Of a stretch of 38,601 bases of DNA, positions 8,104 through 23,380 are shown one piece after another. A model generated the notes under the pieces. It was not told where the DNA came from and ran no database searches. It saw nothing but the letters and a program-made list of their open reading frames with translations. The DNA lies in assembly GCA_902604065.1 (NCBI GenBank), contig CACKXF010000012.1, positions 1 through 38,601 on the forward strand, read 5' to 3'. Position 1 is the first letter of the stretch. Every line of letters starts with the position of its first letter. The stretch is from an uncultured Pelagibacteraceae bacterium. Its GTDB lineage: Bacteria > Pseudomonadota > Alphaproteobacteria > Pelagibacterales > Pelagibacteraceae. Position numbers and translations under genes: made by a program.

Positions 8104-8724
8104 TTATCCCGCATTAAGAATTATTATTTTAGAATCTTTATCCGTAATGCTTTTCTCTAATCTATACTTATAATTTTTAATCTGGGAAGCTTTATTTATC
8201 TCTTCTTGTGCATTTCTTCCTTTCATGATGATCATTTTATGGTTTTTAATACAGTTTTCACGTGAAATATTCAATATTTGGGGTAATTTCTTAAAAGCTC
8301 TACAAACTATATAATTAGAATTAATTTTAACAGAATTAATATCTCTACAGACTACTTTGGCCTTTAATCCCAGGGTTTTTATTACACTGCGTAAAAAATC
8401 TGATTTTAAAGGAGATTTTTCATATAATTTCACATGAAAATTACAATTTTCATAAAATATAGATAAAACTATGCCTGGAAATCCTCCTCCAGACCCAAAA
8501 TCTGCTATACTGTTACATTTATCCTGGTTTATAAATTTCGTTAATTGTGCACTATCAAGGATATGTCTGTCCCAAACATTTTTTTCTGTGCTTTTTGAAA
8601 TTAAATTACGATTTTTGTTAAAATTAAGTAAGTATTTAACAAAATTATCTAGTTTGGTAATCTGATTTGCATTAAAATTTAAGTCTTTTAGAAGAATCCG
8701 TTTAACATTTGGCTCTGTTTTCAA
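8104..8724 (-). CDS. rsmG: 16S rRNA (guanine-527-N7) methyltransferase RsmG (GidB)
   Basis: 206 residues. SAM-binding motif [16 protein letters not shown] near residue 95 is the RsmG signature, preceded by [21 protein letters not shown]. It methylates G527 of 16S rRNA. The start (MKTEPNVKR) lies 23 bases inside the 3' end of mnmG, implying translational coupling. A parS-like palindrome is embedded in its codons for ISREN. Confidence 0.96.
8254..8269. promoter_or_regulatory. Candidate parS centromere site inside rsmG
   Basis: GTTTTCACGTGAAATA matches the widely conserved parS consensus TGTTTCACGTGAAACA at 13 of 16 positions and keeps the full 12-base palindromic core TTTCACGTGAAA. It lies about 160 bases upstream of the parA start, where parS sites cluster in many bacteria. 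It is the only CACGTG-centred parS-like site I found in the window. Confidence 0.7.
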
Positions 8725-10588
8725 GCTGAGACCTTTTTTTTTTTGATTTAATATAACCTAAAAGGATAATAGCTGCGGCTGGAGTTACACCATCTATCCT
8801 TAATGCCTGACCTAACGTTTTAGGCTTTATAAGCTTTAATTTTGATTTAACTTCATTAGATAATCCACTAAAGATGTCATAGTCAATCATTTCTGGAATC
8901 TTTATACCTTCGTCTTTTTTGAAAGCTGCTATATCATGGGATTGCCTTTTTAGATAACCGGAGTAATGAGCATCAATTTCAACTTGATCATCTAGGTCAG
9001 AACCGAAAGCAGGTAATGTAGGCCATATCTGCCTTATTTTTGCCATATTTAGATTTCGTTGGGCCATTAATTCTATGCCTGATCTTTTAACACCATCTTG
9101 AGCAACTTTAACATCATGTTTACTTGCCTCGTTAGGAGATATCACATTAGATTTCAGATGGTCTAATATCTGAACTAGTTTTTTTTGCTTGTCTAAAAAT
9201 ATTTTCGTTCGATTCACATTTACACAATTAATTTTTATACCAGATGGCGTTAACCTTTGATCCGCATTATCTGCTCTCAATGACAGCCTGTATTCTGCTC
9301 TTGAGGTAAACATACGGTATGGTTCTGAAACTCCTTTTGTAATTAAGTCATCAATCATTACTCCAATATAAGACTCAGATCTATCTAATATAAATTCCTT
9401 TTTTTTAAAGATTTTTAAAGCTGCATTAATTCCAGCAATCAACCCTTGAGCTGCAGCTTCTTCATAACCAGTCGTTCCATTAATTTGTCCGGCTAAAAAT
9501 AATGATTTAATTTTTTTAGTCTCTAAAGTGGCATTTAATTCCCTTGGATCTACATAATCATACTCTATTGCATATCCGGCTCTTTTCATCTTGACTGCTT
9601 CTAAACCCTTTATTTTAGCCAATATCTTGAGCTGAATCTCTTCTGGAAGTGATGTTGATATACCATTTGGGTAAACAGTGTTGTCCTTTAATCCTTCTGG
9701 TTCTAAGAATATCTGATGCTTTTGTTTCTCTTTAAATTTGACTATTTTATCTTCTATAGAAGGGCAATATCTTGGACCAATACCTTTAATGTTCCCCGAG
9801 TACATCGCGCTTCTTTTAATATTGTCACTAATAATTTTATGCACCTCGTCATTAGTATGTGTCATACCACATGACACCTGTTTATTTTCGAGCTTAGTTG
9901 ATAAGAAAGAAAAAAAATAAGGATCTTCATCAGCGGGCTGCATTTCTAAATCATCATAATTAATTGTCGACCCATCCAATCTCGGAGGAGTACCAGTTTT
10001 CAGTCTACCTATTTGCATTTTAAATTTAGCAAGCTGTTCACTTAAACCAGTAGAAGGTTTTTCATCATATCTACCTGCAGGGATTTGTGTTTCACCTATA
10101 TGTATTAATCCGTTTAAAAAAGTTCCAGTTGTCAAGATAAGTTCCTTGCATCTAATCTCCTTCCCGCTTTGACATAAGAATCCTATAACCTGATTATCAT
10201 TAAACAAAAACTTAACTACAGGGTCGGCTATCACAGTTAAGTTTTTATAATTAAGTAAAATTTTTTGCATGTGCTCCTTATAAAGAGCTCTGTCTGATTG
10301 GGTACGTGGTCCTCTTACAGCTGGACCTCTACTTCTGTTCAATAATCGGAACTGAATACCTGATTTATCAGAGACTATGCCCATCACACCATCTAGTGCA
10401 TCGATTTCACGAACCAAATGCCCTTTACCTAGTCCGCCAATGGCAGGATTGCAGGACATCTCACCAATAGTCTCAACTTTATGTGTAAAAAGTGCAGTAT
10501 TGACGCCCATTCTAGCGGAAGCTGCAGCTGCTTCACATCCAGCGTGTCCACCACCTATAACTACTACTTCATAGCTTTCTTTAGTCAT
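8702..10588 (-). CDS. mnmG: tRNA uridine-5-carboxymethylaminomethyl modification enzyme MnmG (GidA)
   Basis: 628 residues, the family's normal length. The N-terminal FAD-binding Rossmann motif is [14 protein letters not shown], followed by [26 protein letters not shown] and [14 protein letters not shown], all diagnostic for Mnm[18 protein letters not shown] and [18 protein letters not shown] occur in the C-terminal half. With MnmE it installs the cmnm5 group on wobble U34 of tRNAs. mnmE lies directly upstream (42-base gap). The C-terminus contains a Lys run encoded by an 11-base A tract. Confidence 0.98.
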
Positions 10589-17772: not shown

Positions 17773-18492
17773 TTATATTTCTTTTGCTAATTCACTTAAT
17801 TTAATATCACCGTCGTAAATAGCTTTACCGATTATTATTCCTTCTATTTTTTTATTCCTCAGTTCTTTAGCTTTTTGTATATCACTAATTGAAGATACTC
17901 CTCCAGAAATAACTAGTGGACATTTTGATTTGTTGGCCAGTTTAATTGTTTCTTCCAGATTAGGTCCTATTTTTGTTCCATCTCTATTAATATCTGTAAA
18001 AATAAGTCTACTTATACCAAGGTCATTTATTTCATTTAAAAAGTCTAAAGTTTTGATATTCAAATTTTCTTTCCAGCCTGAAACAGAAAGTTTGCCATCT
18101 TTTGCGTCTAATCCTAAAGCAATTTTATCCTTAAATTTTGTACAAGCTTCCTTTAAAAAATCTTTATTTTTAATTGCTGCGCTACCTAAAATTACTTTTT
18201 CTACCCCCACATCAATATAATGTTTAATACTATCTATATTTCTTACACCACCACCTACTTCAACATTTAAAGCGTGTTTACTTATAATTTCTTGAACAAT
18301 ATCTAAGTTGACTGTCTTACCAGTTAATGCGCCATCTAAATCAACAACATGTAAATTTTTAAAACCATGGGCTTTATATTTCCCTGCTTGTTCGACTGGG
18401 GACATATCATATTCAGTTTTATTATCGAAATCACCTTTAACTAATCTCACACACTTTTTATCTTTTATATCGATAGCAGGAAATATTTTCAT
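17773..18492 (-). CDS. hisA: ProFAR isomerase HisA
   Basis: 239 residues. FPAIDIKDKKCVRLVKGDF is the classic HisA start with the catalytic Asp. VEVGGGVRN and ISGGVSS provide the two phosphate loops, and FTDINRDGT carries the second catalytic Asp. It isomerises ProFAR to PRFAR. Its ATG overlaps the stop codon of the upstream restriction nuclease gene (ATGA), so its translation is likely coupled to a gene unrelated to histidine synthesis. Confidence 0.98.
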   Translation of the reverse strand: MKIFPAIDIKDKKCVRLVKGDFDNKTEYDMSPVEQAGKYKAHGFKNLHVVDLDGALTGKTVNLDIVQEIISKHALNVEVGGGVRNIDSIKHYIDVGVEKVILGSAAIKNKDFLKEACTKFKDKIALGLDAKDGKLSVSGWKENLNIKTLDFLNEINDLGISRLIFTDINRDGTKIGPNLEETIKLANKSKCPLVISGGVSSISDIQKAKELRNKKIEGIIIGKAIYDGDIKLSELAKEI

Positions 18493-19352
18493 TTTTTAAT
18501 CTCTTTACTTATATCTTGAACTTCTCTGTTAATATTACGCCAGCCTTTTTTAAAACATTCTCTTCTCGCTTTATAAATATAATCCCATTCCATTGTGTCT
18601 AATTCTTTTTTTGTAATATTTGTTGGCTCTTCTAATATTTCTTTCTTAAAAATGTTTCTATCATAAGCAATAAGGCAAAATGTTGTCAAAATTGATGATC
18701 CAAAATAATAATTTACTCCCCTGCAAAGTTTATCTTGTCCTACATAAACAAAGGTTTTTTTATTAATAGTAAAAGTGATCTTATAAATTTGAGCTCTTTT
18801 AATTATGTCAGTTAACTTGCCAGTTTGGCCACTAGCATACTTGTCTAGTCCAGGATTTATTTTTTGTAAAAAAATATTTGGCTCAAATTGTTGTCTTAAT
18901 AATTCTTTTGATTTTTTTGATTTCTCTCTTTCTGAGGGACTAAGTACATTAATGGATAATCCACCTCGCTCTATATCAACTATAAAATTAGTTTCTCCAT
19001 CAACAACAACTTTTTCTACTATAATTGTATCTCCTTCTTTAGGTTTTCTAGCACCATAACATTCTGCTAACTTGTAAAGTCTAGTTTGTTTACTAACTCT
19101 TGCGAACTCAAACCTCACTTTGTAAATATCACCCGTAATTTTATCTATATGATTTACAAAAACCCAGTTTTTTTTTCCTGGCCTACCAGGTTCTCTATTA
19201 TAAAATTCAGTTGGATTTTTATCTGTTCCAATAAATGGACTGACTTTTTCACCATTAACTGTTATTTTTTTTGGAATGTTAAGGTATTTGTCATGGGTGC
19301 CCCCTTCACCAATGTCAGTCTTTGATAAGATCTTTCTCCATGAATTAATCAT
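18489..19352 (-). CDS. Putative type II restriction endonuclease: EcoRII-N (B3-like) domain fused to GIY-YIG nuclease
   Basis: 287 residues. Residues 9-28 (LSKTDIGEGGTHDKYLNIPK) match the opening of the EcoRII N-terminal recognition domain (LSxxDxGxxGxHxxxLxIP), and the region to about residue 130 (with PKEGDTIIVEKV) fits that B3-like fold. The C-terminal part looks like GIY-YIG: QIYKI at 188-192, YVG at 203-205, YYFGSS at 215-220, NIFKKEIL and then the likely catalytic Glu in TMEWDYI (E255). It lies 4 bases after the second of two cytosine-5 methyltransferases and ends overlapping hisA. Expected role is cleavage of unmethylated foreign DNA. Domain calls are by eye. Confidence 0.75.
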   Translation of the reverse strand: MINSWRKILSKTDIGEGGTHDKYLNIPKKITVNGEKVSPFIGTDKNPTEFYNREPGRPGKKNWVFVNHIDKITGDIYKVRFEFARVSKQTRLYKLAECYGARKPKEGDTIIVEKVVVDGETNFIVDIERGGLSINVLSPSEREKSKKSKELLRQQFEPNIFLQKINPGLDKYASGQTGKLTDIIKRAQIYKITFTINKKTFVYVGQDKLCRGVNYYFGSSILTTFCLIAYDRNIFKKEILEEPTNITKKELDTMEWDYIYKARRECFKKGWRNINREVQDISKEIKK

Positions 19353-19356
19353 TAAT

Positions 19357-20847
19357 TTAATTTAAATATTTTTTAATCACTTTTGCAATATGTTTAGCCA
19401 TTACTGGAGGAACTGCATTTCCTATTTGCATATATGTTTTTAAATAGGGTCCTAAAAAAAAATAATCATCTGGAAAAGATTGAATTCTAGCAGCCTCCCT
19501 CGGTGTAATAGTTCTTACTTGAGTTGGATGAATATGTGACAGACAATCCATTCTTAAATGTGCTGTAATTGTTCTAGATGGCTTGTTTTCATTAAGTCTA
19601 AAATATTTATCTTTAAAAATATGGTTTCTATGTTTGTAGGGAAAAACGTGTTGTATTTTTTTACTTGTACCATCTTCACCCTGACCTAATTTTGAGAATA
19701 TTTCATAATTTACATTACTTGCATACCTAGCTTTGTGGTTAAATATAAAATCGATTTTTCTATTTTGATTTATTAACTTTAAGTAAGAGTTTTCATCTCC
19801 TTTAAAAGAATTTATTGCAATTTTTTTTCCAGTTTTATCATCATCCACCTCAGTGATATTTTTAACGCGTGGTGATATAAGTGGTTTTATATATTTAAGT
19901 GCATCTTTCAAAATATGTTTTTTAACCAATTTATTGTTATTTTTAATATCTTTAAAAATACGTTCTACAGATATTTTTTTTGTTTTTGCAAAATCCTCTC
20001 TTATTCCAATAAAGAAAAGTCTGGGTCTTTTTTGAGCTACACCAAACTGATCTGATACTAAAAGATCATAATCAGAAATATAAGAGATTTTTTTTAAATC
20101 TTGTTTTACTTGCTCTGCATAAGGGTACATTCCTTTAACATTTTCCATCACTACTATTTTGGGATTAATCTTTTTTACTGCCTGGATAAAATATTTATAT
20201 AATTTATTTCTTGGATCATTAATGATTCTCTGCTGATTTACATTGCTAAAACCTTGGCAAGGCGGGCCGCCTACCACAACATCAACTTTTTTATTAATTA
20301 AATACTTTTTAAGATTTGGTATAATTTTTTTTATATCATCAAGAATAATTTTACTTGGTAGTATTTCTGGATGATTAAATTTATAGGTTTCTATACATTC
20401 CTCGTCATTATCGTTAGCTAAAACAATTTTAAAATTTTCTTGTATAAACCCGTAACTTAAACCACCTGCACCACAAAAAAAATCTACAACGTTATGTTTT
20501 CTCTGGTATTGTTTTTTTTTCCTTTTTTGTGGCTCTATCTTTTCTAGATAATTTCCAATTTTTCTTTTATTTAAAATATTAAAATTTACAGCACATATAA
20601 AATTTTCGAAAAGATTTGGGTCAAGAACTTCTCTTAATAATTTTTTATCTCTACTATTACATGAGTTAAAAATATTTAATTCTTTAAGTCTCAAAGAAGT
20701 TTTTTTATCAATTGTAGCCTTATTTTTATCAATTTTTATATTAAGATTATTAGAAATTAATTTTAAATATTTTATATATATATTTACTTTTTCAATAAAA
20801 AATTTTTTTTTTTTGGTACCTTTAATGTTTTTAATTAATTCAAACAC
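19357..20847 (-). CDS. DNA cytosine-5 methyltransferase (second of pair) with N-terminal extension
   Basis: 496 residues. Catalytic motifs are intact: motif I VVDFFCGAGGLS, motif IV GGPPCQGFS (Cys197), motif VI MENVKG, motif VIII QKRPRLFFIG, motif IX region ...REAARIQSFPDDY, and motif X MQIGNAVPPVMA. Motif I begins only at residue 120, after a Lys-rich 118-residue extension of unknown fold; most m5C enzymes start motif I within the first 10-20 residues. A 12-base A tract lies at codons 12-15. It overlaps the upstream methyltransferase gene by 8 bases and probably protects one strand of the nuclease's target. Confidence 0.95.
   Translation of the reverse strand: MFELIKNIKGTKKKKFFIEKVNIYIKYLKLISNNLNIKIDKNKATIDKKTSLRLKELNIFNSCNSRDKKLLREVLDPNLFENFICAVNFNILNKRKIGNYLEKIEPQKRKKKQYQRKHNVVDFFCGAGGLSYGFIQENFKIVLANDNDEECIETYKFNHPEILPSKIILDDIKKIIPNLKKYLINKKVDVVVGGPPCQGFSNVNQQRIINDPRNKLYKYFIQAVKKINPKIVVMENVKGMYPYAEQVKQDLKKISYISDYDLLVSDQFGVAQKRPRLFFIGIREDFAKTKKISVERIFKDIKNNNKLVKKHILKDALKYIKPLISPRVKNITEVDDDKTGKKIAINSFKGDENSYLKLINQNRKIDFIFNHKARYASNVNYEIFSKLGQGEDGTSKKIQHVFPYKHRNHIFKDKYFRLNENKPSRTITAHLRMDCLSHIHPTQVRTITPREAARIQSFPDDYFFLGPYLKTYMQIGNAVPPVMAKHIAKVIKKYLN
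20803..20814 (-). repeat. 12-base homopolymer near the start of the second methyltransferase gene
   Basis: Twelve T on the plus strand (A12 in the gene) encode four lysines at codons 12-15. One-base slippage would truncate the protein almost at its start, so this is a possible on/off switch or a sequencing-error hotspot. Confidence 0.9.
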
Positions 20848-22054
20848 CTTTGATTTCCTTAAGAGCCTTTTTTAAACTTATTGCAATTTGTTCAGCCATA
20901 AGAGGAGGAACTGCATTTCCTATCTGTTTAAATTGTTCTGTTCTCGGACCAAAAAATATAAAGTCATCAGGGAAAGATTGTAATCTAGCCGCTTCTCTCA
21001 CTGTGAGAGTTCTTTCTTGTTTATAATCAGGATGGATAAATTGGTTACCATCCTTATACAAGTGAGAGATTATTGTTCTGGCTGGTTTATCCCAAAATTG
21101 AACAACATAGCTATTTTTAAAAACTCTCTGTTTTTTATGTCTAAGTTGGGGTTTTTTTTTAAGGAGTTCTTCGAAAGTCCACTTGTTTTTACTCATTTCT
21201 TTAAATCTTTTTCTATCGGCTAAATTATGATTTCTCACAACATGATCAAATAGTTTTAAATTTTTTTGTTTTCTAATTTTTTTTATATATTTATTTTTAA
21301 GCTTTTTGTTATATTTGATGATAGGTCTTCCTTGGCCAGGTTTTAAAGGGGGCAAATCAGAAATAGCATCTCTTACTGTAACAAATTTTTTTTTTTTAAT
21401 TTTTTCATTATTTTTACAATCTGGGGTATAATGAGTTTTTTTGATGTCACTAAAAATCTTTTTTATATCGTAATTTATATCTTTTCTTATTCCGATTAAA
21501 AAAATTCTTTTTCTAATTTGTGGTACGCCATATTCACAAGAATTTAGTATCATTTTATAAGTATCATTTATTATATTATAGTTTTTTCCTAATCTCATTT
21601 TTATAACATCAATAACTTTTTTATTGTTAAATTTTGCTGTGGTTAAACCCGTTACATTTTCAAATAAAAATATAAATGGATTAAAGTGATTTAATATTTT
21701 TTCATAATTTTCAAATAGGTAATTTCTTGGATCATTTTTCATTGCATTGTCATCTTTGGCTCTCCCAAGGCTAGAAAAGCTTTGACATGGCGGGCCACCT
21801 AGAATTACATCAACACTCGTACCATTGATGCCTTTTTTAATTTTTTTAATAATATTTTTATCTTTAATATCGCTTTTTAAAATATTAACTTTTCTTTCAT
21901 TAAAACCATAATGTTTTAATCTAATTGTTAGCGTTTTACATGAGAAATGATCATGATCTACATGTGAAAGAGGTAAAAAACCTTGTTTGTAGAAACCTTC
22001 GGAAAGCCCGCCACAACCTGCAAATAAATCTATAAATGTATGTTTTGAATTCAT
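20840..22054 (-). CDS. DNA cytosine-5 methyltransferase (first of pair)
   Basis: 404 residues. Motif I FIDLFAGCGGLSEGF at the very N-terminus, motif IV LGGPPCQSFSSLG (Cys90), motif VI FENVTG (residues 131-136), motif VIII IRKRIFLIG, a target-recognition region rich in Lys and Asn, TVREAARLQSFPDDF, and motif X FKQIGNAVPPLMA. All catalytic elements are present. It transfers methyl from SAM to cytosine C5. It is first in the module, 95 bases after hisH, so modification is made before the nuclease. It differs clearly from its neighbour in the recognition region, so the two probably methylate different sequences or strands. Confidence 0.96.
   Translation of the reverse strand: MNSKHTFIDLFAGCGGLSEGFYKQGFLPLSHVDHDHFSCKTLTIRLKHYGFNERKVNILKSDIKDKNIIKKIKKGINGTSVDVILGGPPCQSFSSLGRAKDDNAMKNDPRNYLFENYEKILNHFNPFIFLFENVTGLTTAKFNNKKVIDVIKMRLGKNYNIINDTYKMILNSCEYGVPQIRKRIFLIGIRKDINYDIKKIFSDIKKTHYTPDCKNNEKIKKKKFVTVRDAISDLPPLKPGQGRPIIKYNKKLKNKYIKKIRKQKNLKLFDHVVRNHNLADRKRFKEMSKNKWTFEELLKKKPQLRHKKQRVFKNSYVVQFWDKPARTIISHLYKDGNQFIHPDYKQERTLTVREAARLQSFPDDFIFFGPRTEQFKQIGNAVPPLMAEQIAISLKKALKEIKGV
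21386..21397 (-). repeat. 12-base homopolymer inside the first methyltransferase gene
   Basis: Twelve T on the plus strand (A12 in the gene) encode the four lysines of KIKKKKFVTV, between the catalytic motifs and the target-recognition region. With the tract in the partner gene, it ties for the longest homopolymer I found in the window. Confidence 0.9.
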
Positions 22055-22127: not shown

Positions 22128-22178
22128 ATTTGTTAATATTTATTGATATTTATAAATTTAAAAAATTTGTTAATATTT
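22128..22178. repeat. 14-bp direct repeat duplicating the hisH 3' end
   Basis: ATTTGTTAATATTT occurs at 22128-22141 and 22165-22178. The right copy encodes the KILTNF end of HisH; the left copy lies just beyond the hisH stop, and the similarity continues imperfectly for about 30 bases. The repeat is at the hisH-side border of the restriction-modification insertion and may be a scar of that event. Confidence 0.6.
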
Positions 22179-22785
22179 TTATTCCTGTGTTTTGGCTTTT
22201 TTCTGGGTGAAACTGAGATCCAAAAATATTTTCCCAAGATACCGCGGCAATTACATCTTTTCCATAATTTGTTGTAATAGAAACATTTTTTTTATCATTT
22301 GGTATGAATTCATAACTATGAATAAAATAGGCATGGTTATTATCATTAACATTTTTAAAAACTTTTGATTTGTTTTTTATTTTAAGTTCGTTCCATCCCA
22401 TATGAGGAATTTTTAAATTTTTTGTGCCTAGATCTAATTTAACAACTTCTCCAGGTATCCAGTTTAACCCAGGTGTTTCTTCTTCTTCGTATCCTTTGGT
22501 AGCGAACAATTGCATGCCTGCACAAATTCCGTAGATTGGTTTCTTTTTTGTTAAAACACTCTCATTTAATTCATCTAGTAGTCCTTTGATATTATTAATT
22601 CCTTTTTTACATGCTTTGAAAGATCCTTGTCCAGGCAAAACTATTTTGTCGGAATTTTTTATATCATTGATGTCTGAACTAATTTTTACTGAATAATTTA
22701 ATTTGTTATCAAAATTTGCTTTCTCGATAGATTTAGCGATTGATCTTAAATTGCCAACTCCATAATCAACTACTGTTAATAACAT
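22150..22785 (-). CDS. hisH: Imidazole glycerol phosphate synthase, glutaminase subunit HisH
   Basis: I place the start at the ATG at 22785 (MLLTVVDYGVGNLRS), the standard HisH N-terminus, giving 211 residues; the track's longer frame runs back into hisB. Class I amidotransferase triad: Cys in YGICAGMQLFA, and His and Glu in SQFHPEKSQ. It makes ammonia for HisF. The start lies 4 bases after the hisB stop. In the usual order hisA would follow directly; here a three-gene restriction-modification module intervenes. Confidence 0.97.
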   Translation of the reverse strand: MLLTVVDYGVGNLRSIAKSIEKANFDNKLNYSVKISSDINDIKNSDKIVLPGQGSFKACKKGINNIKGLLDELNESVLTKKKPIYGICAGMQLFATKGYEEEETPGLNWIPGEVVKLDLGTKNLKIPHMGWNELKIKNKSKVFKNVNDNNHAYFIHSYEFIPNDKKNVSITTNYGKDVIAAVSWENIFGSQFHPEKSQNTGIKILTNFLNL

Positions 22786-22789
22786 TAAA

Positions 22790-23380
22790 TTATATTTTGC
22801 CCTTTGTAGATGGTATTGAATTTTTAATTCTGCTATCAATAGTAAATGCATCTTTCAAAGATCTAGCTAGACCTTTAAAGCAAGACTCAATTTTGTGGTG
22901 ACTGTTGTCACCATATATATTTTCGACGTGAAGTGTAATGCCTGCTGATTGAGAAAAAGCTTGAAACCATTCTTTAAAAAGTTCTGTATCCATTTCCCCT
23001 AATTTTTCAACTTTAAGATCAACTTTCCAAATAAGATATGGTCTATTAGATACATCTAGAGACACTCTGCTTAAAGTCTCATCCATAGGTATCATTGTTG
23101 ATGCATATCTTTTAATGCCTTTTAAATTTCCTGCAGCTTTTTTAATTGCTTCACCAATTGCTATGCCGCTGTCTTCTGTAGTGTGATGGAGATCAATATG
23201 TGTGTCTCCTTTTGCTTTTATATTTAAATCAATCAGTGAATGCTTTGAAAGTTGTTCAAGCATATGATCTAAAAATCCTATTCCAGTTTTAATACTGTAT
23301 TTACCCTTACCATCAATATTTGCTTCTACAGAAATATTAGTTTCTTTTGTTTTTCTCAGTATTTTTGCTTTACGTTTCAT
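22790..23380 (-). CDS. hisB: Imidazoleglycerol-phosphate dehydratase
   Basis: 196 residues, the monofunctional HisB (no phosphatase domain). Metal-binding motifs: [31 protein letters not shown] and the C-terminal [16 protein letters not shown]. It dehydrates IGP to imidazole acetol phosphate. It is the first gene of the leftward his transcription unit and diverges from hslV across 105 bases that hold a candidate promoter. Confidence 0.98.

Follow-up and report, generated by a model that had tools for sequence, protein, structure and literature searches.

A probable restriction–modification cassette with two m5C methyltransferases and a GIY-YIG nuclease domain in the his operon of SAR11 bacteria

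Three consecutive genes on the minus strand of a contig from an uncultured Pelagibacteraceae bacterium raise the question of whether they form a complete restriction–modification (R-M) system and, if so, what kind of protein serves as its nuclease. The DNA analysed (hereafter 'the window') comprises 38,601 nucleotides and is one whole contig (CACKXF010000012.1) of assembly GCA_902604065.1. A preliminary description had read the genes as two cytosine-5 (m5C) methyltransferases followed by a putative nuclease, all overlapping or within 4 bases of each other, and both the three open reading frames and their tight packing are indeed found: M1 (404 residues; 22054-20840) overlaps by 8 bp with M2 (496 residues; 20847-19357), which starts with GTG, and a spacing of 4 bp separates M2 from R (287 residues, two domains; 19352-18489), the putative restriction endonuclease. 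Absent from that description was the setting of the trio, which interrupts the his operon. On the minus strand the gene order is hisB-hisH-M1-M2-R-hisA-hisF, and the two flanks of the insertion site are formed by the upstream neighbour hisH (22150..22851; true start probably near 22779) and the downstream neighbour hisA (17773..18492), whose start codon overlaps the stop codon of R (TCAT on the plus strand, i.e. ATGA). In every one of the 29 congeners whose hisA locus was fetched, hisH directly neighbours hisA, with a spacing of 2 to 475 bp, and the trio therefore represents an insertion. A scan for promoters and terminators upstream of M1 found none. As a side observation, the spacing between hisH and hisA amounts to ∼190–475 bp at five congeneric loci (L049, L050, L051, L057 and L073) and to 2–18 bp in the remaining congeners; given these larger gaps, the junction may tolerate insertions generally.

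The same trio recurs in a second genome. A scan of genome contigs identified an M1-M2-R cassette in the SAR11 assembly CABYLY010000006.1 (single cell AG-894-I19; locus L044), where the order hslU-hslV-hisB-hisH-M1-M2-R-hisA-hisF places it at the identical hisH/hisA junction, with the same overlap of the R stop and the hisA start. This locus was found with loosened search patterns, derived by aligning R, the only real row, to two synthetic variants, and the match was then verified from L044's own sequence. Between the window and L044, R, M2 and M1 are, respectively, 77%, 72% and 70% identical, which is comparable with the identities of the flanking hisB (82%) and hisA (74%), and neither genome shows an interrupted frame in any of the three genes. 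The L044 copy thus shows R to be a genuine gene that has been conserved, and links it to M1 as well as M2; lack of conservation of the nuclease frame with the methyltransferases had been named in the preliminary description as a finding that would speak against its reading, and the opposite is observed.

L044 holds the one known orthologue of R, and the cassette is rare and patchy: no further orthologue was found among 397 genomes of the order besides the window and L044, R is missing from 168 other congeneric genomes searched, and it was not found in samples of the class and phylum. Three candidate matches of R were rejected, one (G757) as chance-level and two (G822 and G1073) as chance-level with stops in frame. 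Trees of hisA and hisF indicate that the window and L044 are not sisters. Because the nearest relatives of the window by hisF (G888 and G286) are both without the cassette, its gain by the window lineage is favoured as being more economical than descent with many losses. Recombination across the conserved his flanks has probably carried the cassette from one SAR11 lineage to another, the recombination signal in hisA being only a faint dip of identity. Two features of the surroundings are recorded here as separate observations. First, hisH occurs in the genus as two very different alleles: that of the window (22150-22779) is 82–85% identical to those of G888 and G286, which thus have the window allele without the cassette, and ∼50% identical to those of L044 and the other congeners examined. 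Second, L044 carries between hisF and hisE an ORF (8307-8846, minus strand) which, by eye, resembles 2-oxoglutarate/iron dioxygenases, and the window has no gene there.

That M1 and M2 are both complete m5C methyltransferases, as originally proposed, is confirmed by their matches to Pfam family PF00145 (1.2e-59 and 5.9e-67, respectively) and by intact catalytic motifs (GGPPCQ, ENV, QxRxR and GNAVPP). The two proteins are ∼33% identical overall and, again as proposed, their recognition regions differ. When the window is compared with L044, the best conserved parts are those concerned with recognition: the target-recognition region of M2 (residues about 366-446; 19510..19752, minus strand) is 96% identical vs 72% overall, that of M1 (residues about 264-350; 21005..21265, minus strand) is 83% identical vs 70% for the whole protein, and the N-terminal, putative reading domain of R reaches 84%. 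Such a pattern would fit a shared target that has been kept fixed between the two cassettes. M2 additionally possesses an N-terminal extension of about 115 residues (20503..20847, minus strand), which is fast-evolving (43% identical to L044), has no family match, and is possibly a regulatory domain.

Does the pair serve a single target? In the LlaJI system, an m5C pair guards one asymmetric site, GACGC/GCGTC (PMC1459862). Following the same logic of m5C pairs, and given that the recognition region of M2 is homologous to those of LlaJI-type methylases (46% identity to a methylase of a LlaJI-family Treponema system), it is plausible that the target of M1 and M2 is asymmetric, and probably it is. 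M2 has its nearest relatives in a SAR11 tandem pair, that of G005 (46% to its first methylase), and in LlaJI-type plasmid systems, whose first methylase shares homology with M2 in both the catalytic and the recognition region (38–41%). Leaving the cassette aside, M1 is most similar to the second members of SAR11 tandem pairs (40–41%) and, at 37%, to the second methylase of a Lactococcus lactis plasmid pair adjoining an NgoFVII-type PLD nuclease; the second methylase of the LlaJI-type plasmid systems is no close relative of M1. As these relatives belong to different kinds of pair, M1 and M2 may not share one target. One of them, recognizing a symmetric or degenerate sequence, would then guard against R, and the other would be a second solitary or regulatory methylase, for which the extension of M2 might provide a hint. 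We regard this explanation as unlikely, albeit worth serious consideration: M1 and M2 have stayed together with R in each of the two lineages, strong conservation is seen in the recognition region of either methylase, and tandem m5C pairs accompanied by one nuclease recur in the order.

Assignment of R as a nuclease was unsupported when first made. As a single protein query, R was without a match in Pfam, NCBIfam and PADLOC, among the PDB sequences, and in plasmids, phages, viral contigs and genome contigs; matches from the PDB search to a viral IFN-binding protein and a neurotoxin light chain were rejected as chance-level (E 0.1 or worse). Support is now provided by the C-terminal domain (residues 186-279; 18516..18797, minus strand), for which tblastn, hhalign and a viral scan supply the evidence. 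Using tblastn at permissive E-values against 50,697 phage records, R matched 107 records, and the annotated phage matches listed are mostly homing endonucleases, including SegD, SegH and one 'GIY-YIG family Seg-like' protein. When R is aligned to eight of these phage proteins, the segments IYKIT, FVYVG and YYFGSS as well as E255 and N273 are in register; the GIY-YIG residues of R are Y190, Y203, E255 and N273 (with IYKIT at 189 and FVYVG at 201), they are conserved in both orthologues, and R211 is a possible catalytic Arg. Comparison of the R C-terminus with these eight proteins by hhalign yielded 97.3% probability, an E-value of 2.5e-11 and a score of 64.9, vs a maximum score of 21 in a column-shuffle control (n = 150); because the eight were picked for their resemblance to R, this E-value flatters the comparison, yet the shuffles are exceeded by a wide margin. 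Pfam assigns to the same phage proteins SegE_GIY-YIG, GIY-YIG or I-TevI/NUMOD (homing-endonuclease DNA-binding) modules, and a separate scan of viral contigs revealed further phage Seg-like ORFs at E 1e-5. The Pfam GIY-YIG model itself does not match R even at E 10, and several of the phage relatives likewise fall below its cut-off; an hhalign comparison with ordinary GIY-YIG domains from Alphaproteobacteria (PF01541 matches, a set with two mis-extracted rows) gave no similarity. Judged by homology, on which the nuclease assignment rests, the C-terminus of R is a GIY-YIG nuclease domain that belongs to the Seg/homing type of phages and keeps its catalytic residues.

The N-terminal domain of R (residues 1-135; 18948..19352, minus strand) is a putative sequence-reading domain. 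It is the part of R best conserved between the window and L044 (84% identity; the linker reaches 64% and the nuclease domain 75%). It is an orphan domain and probably the part of the protein that reads the target. Residues 6-52 (DIGEGGTH...NIP) align with the EcoRII-N signature KRLSANDTGATxxHQ..YIP, and the hhalign score of 22.7 lies at the edge of chance (100 shuffles; mean 13.4, maximum 22.5). Likeness to the EcoRII-N/B3 fold is thus only suggestive; of the domains compared with it, which included NgoFVII-C and the N-termini of SAR11 HNH proteins, EcoRII-N alone came that close, and the catalytic domains of the B3-domain enzymes EcoRII (EcoRII-C) and NgoFVII/NgoAVII (PLD) differ from the GIY-YIG domain of R. 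AlphaFold is uninformative for R because its relatives are too few (pLDDT of 34 for R, and 40 for the N-terminal domain alone), and a Foldseek search with the predicted N-terminal domain retrieved nothing significant.

The kinship of the nuclease domain with SegD and SegH, together with the finding that the cassette occupies precisely the same position in two distant lineages and that the site is empty elsewhere, might also suggest that R is a freestanding Seg-like homing endonuclease, that is, a selfish gene beside two methylases, and that the cassette was mobilised by R cutting the empty hisH-hisA junction. However, the phage Seg/I-TevI-type enzymes, although the closest in sequence to the catalytic domain of R, carry the GIY-YIG domain at the N-terminus followed by DNA-binding modules and come without methylases, whereas in R the domain order is inverted, with GIY-YIG last. 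Moreover, Pfam detected no NUMOD or I-TevI-type DNA-binding module in R, which has its conserved N-terminal domain instead, and R stays in operon register with M1 and M2. On the strength of domain order, conservation and co-occurrence, both the homing explanation and that of divided targets are less likely, and we consider the former distinctly improbable.

Marine genomes often contain methylases that lack a partner nuclease (PMC9516812), and the cassette might accordingly be a relic or a methylation-only island in which R is no longer a nuclease. Against this, the frames of M1, M2 and R are intact in both genomes, the GIY-YIG catalytic residues are retained in both, and dN/dS for R between the window and L044 is ∼0.11, similar to hisB and hisA (dS is near saturation, and the values are thus rough). 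R is under purifying selection, and decay of its function appears very improbable. Finally, mis-assembly of the cassette into a SAR11 his operon, for which one could invoke the fragmented source assembly (33 contigs, 75% complete, 3.1% contamination), is ruled out for practical purposes by the identical junctions and hisA overlap in the independent record AG-894-I19, and the base composition of the cassette is in line with that of the window.

We thus consider it probable that the M1-M2-R trio makes up a full R-M cassette of Type II (IIA, Type IIS-like), having a GIY-YIG nuclease, an asymmetric target and a home in the his operon, and spreading by recombination. Features of a Type II system are present in the form of (i) methyltransferases with intact motifs and (ii) a linked gene for a nuclease domain which is kept with the methylases in L044. 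In the proposed mechanism, an asymmetric recognition sequence would receive m5C on one strand from M1 and on the other from M2; R would read the same sequence, when unmodified, through its N-terminal domain and would cut with its single C-terminal GIY-YIG domain, probably close to the site, either as a dimer or by sequential nicking. The cassette, carried between hisH and hisA, would probably be co-transcribed with the his genes, and it would pass among SAR11 lineages through recombination in the his flanks.

Comparison with characterised systems serves to define what is new here. LlaJI itself (Lactococcus lactis pNP40) and the LlaJI-type plasmid systems of Treponema and Pedobacter share with the cassette two tandem m5C methylases in an operon with restriction genes. 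Restriction by LlaJI, however, involves an McrB-like subunit and a second subunit (R1 and R2), whereas the cassette encodes a single GIY-YIG protein; neither RE_LlaJI (PF09563) nor McrB-like AAA genes were found at the cassette locus, while the Treponema relative has both. A GIY-YIG catalytic domain, in turn, is established in the restriction enzymes Eco29kI, Cfr42I and Hpy188I (PMC4081073) and is thereby shared with R, but these enzymes cut symmetric sites (PMC4081073), and R differs by its additional N-terminal domain, its Seg-like type of GIY-YIG domain and its two methylases; a search among PDB sequences gave no match of R to Eco29kI or Hpy188I. The kind of system, Type II with two m5C methylases, is already known; for the nuclease architecture of R we found no description, and the cassette has a fixed home in the his operon. 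More tentatively, and with the chances just short of even in our estimate, one may picture R as a Seg-type GIY-YIG domain placed in reversed order behind an undescribed reading domain and cutting an asymmetric, m5C-protected site, with the cassette travelling as his-operon cargo between SAR11 lineages.

The overall reading put forward at the outset, a three-gene R-M cassette with two m5C enzymes and a two-domain nuclease, has held up, with the trio conserved as one unit, but the accompanying view that such systems are unexpected in SAR11 has not. Of 197 Pelagibacterales genomes sampled, 37 gave matches to m5C methylases, and several of these have two adjacent m5C methylases beside an HNH_2 nuclease (L034 3449-6618; L043 4058-7270; L007 464-3597; L009 485-3665; L035 2368-5535). 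Like the cassette, the latter systems combine two m5C methylases with one nuclease gene; they differ in having an HNH nuclease to which R is not detectably homologous by sequence, in their other chromosomal surroundings, and in a gene order that is partly convergent. In a 2024 survey, 19 out of 172 Pelagibacter genomes were reported to have R-M systems (PMC11066056), and a 2022 study, which cited hardly any previous reports, found none in the SAR11 bins it covered (PMC9516812). In view of the m5C matches, the tandem HNH_2 pairs and the 2024 survey, R-M in SAR11 is uncommon but not unexpected. Variants of the methylase pairs were encountered as well: the first methylase is split into two frames in G040 (L043), a 743-residue protein of G188 (L039 1755-3986) joins two m5C methylase modules in one chain, and in two SAR11 genomes (L037 1-7471; L038 3382-9999) two m5C methylases are separated by another gene and accompanied by a protein of ∼850 residues, an arrangement that is possibly another defence cassette.

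SAR11 bacteria are among the most abundant bacteria of the surface ocean and are hosts of very abundant phages. If the proposed reading is true, they would gain a defined restriction system with a nuclease that annotation libraries have missed because R matches none of their models. Characterised GIY-YIG restriction enzymes are few and, as covered by one review (PMC4081073), serve symmetric sites; a Seg-like domain located behind a separate reading domain would directly link homing endonucleases and restriction enzymes. Finally, the fixed insertion point in the his operon means that presence or absence of the cassette can be easily typed in metagenomes.
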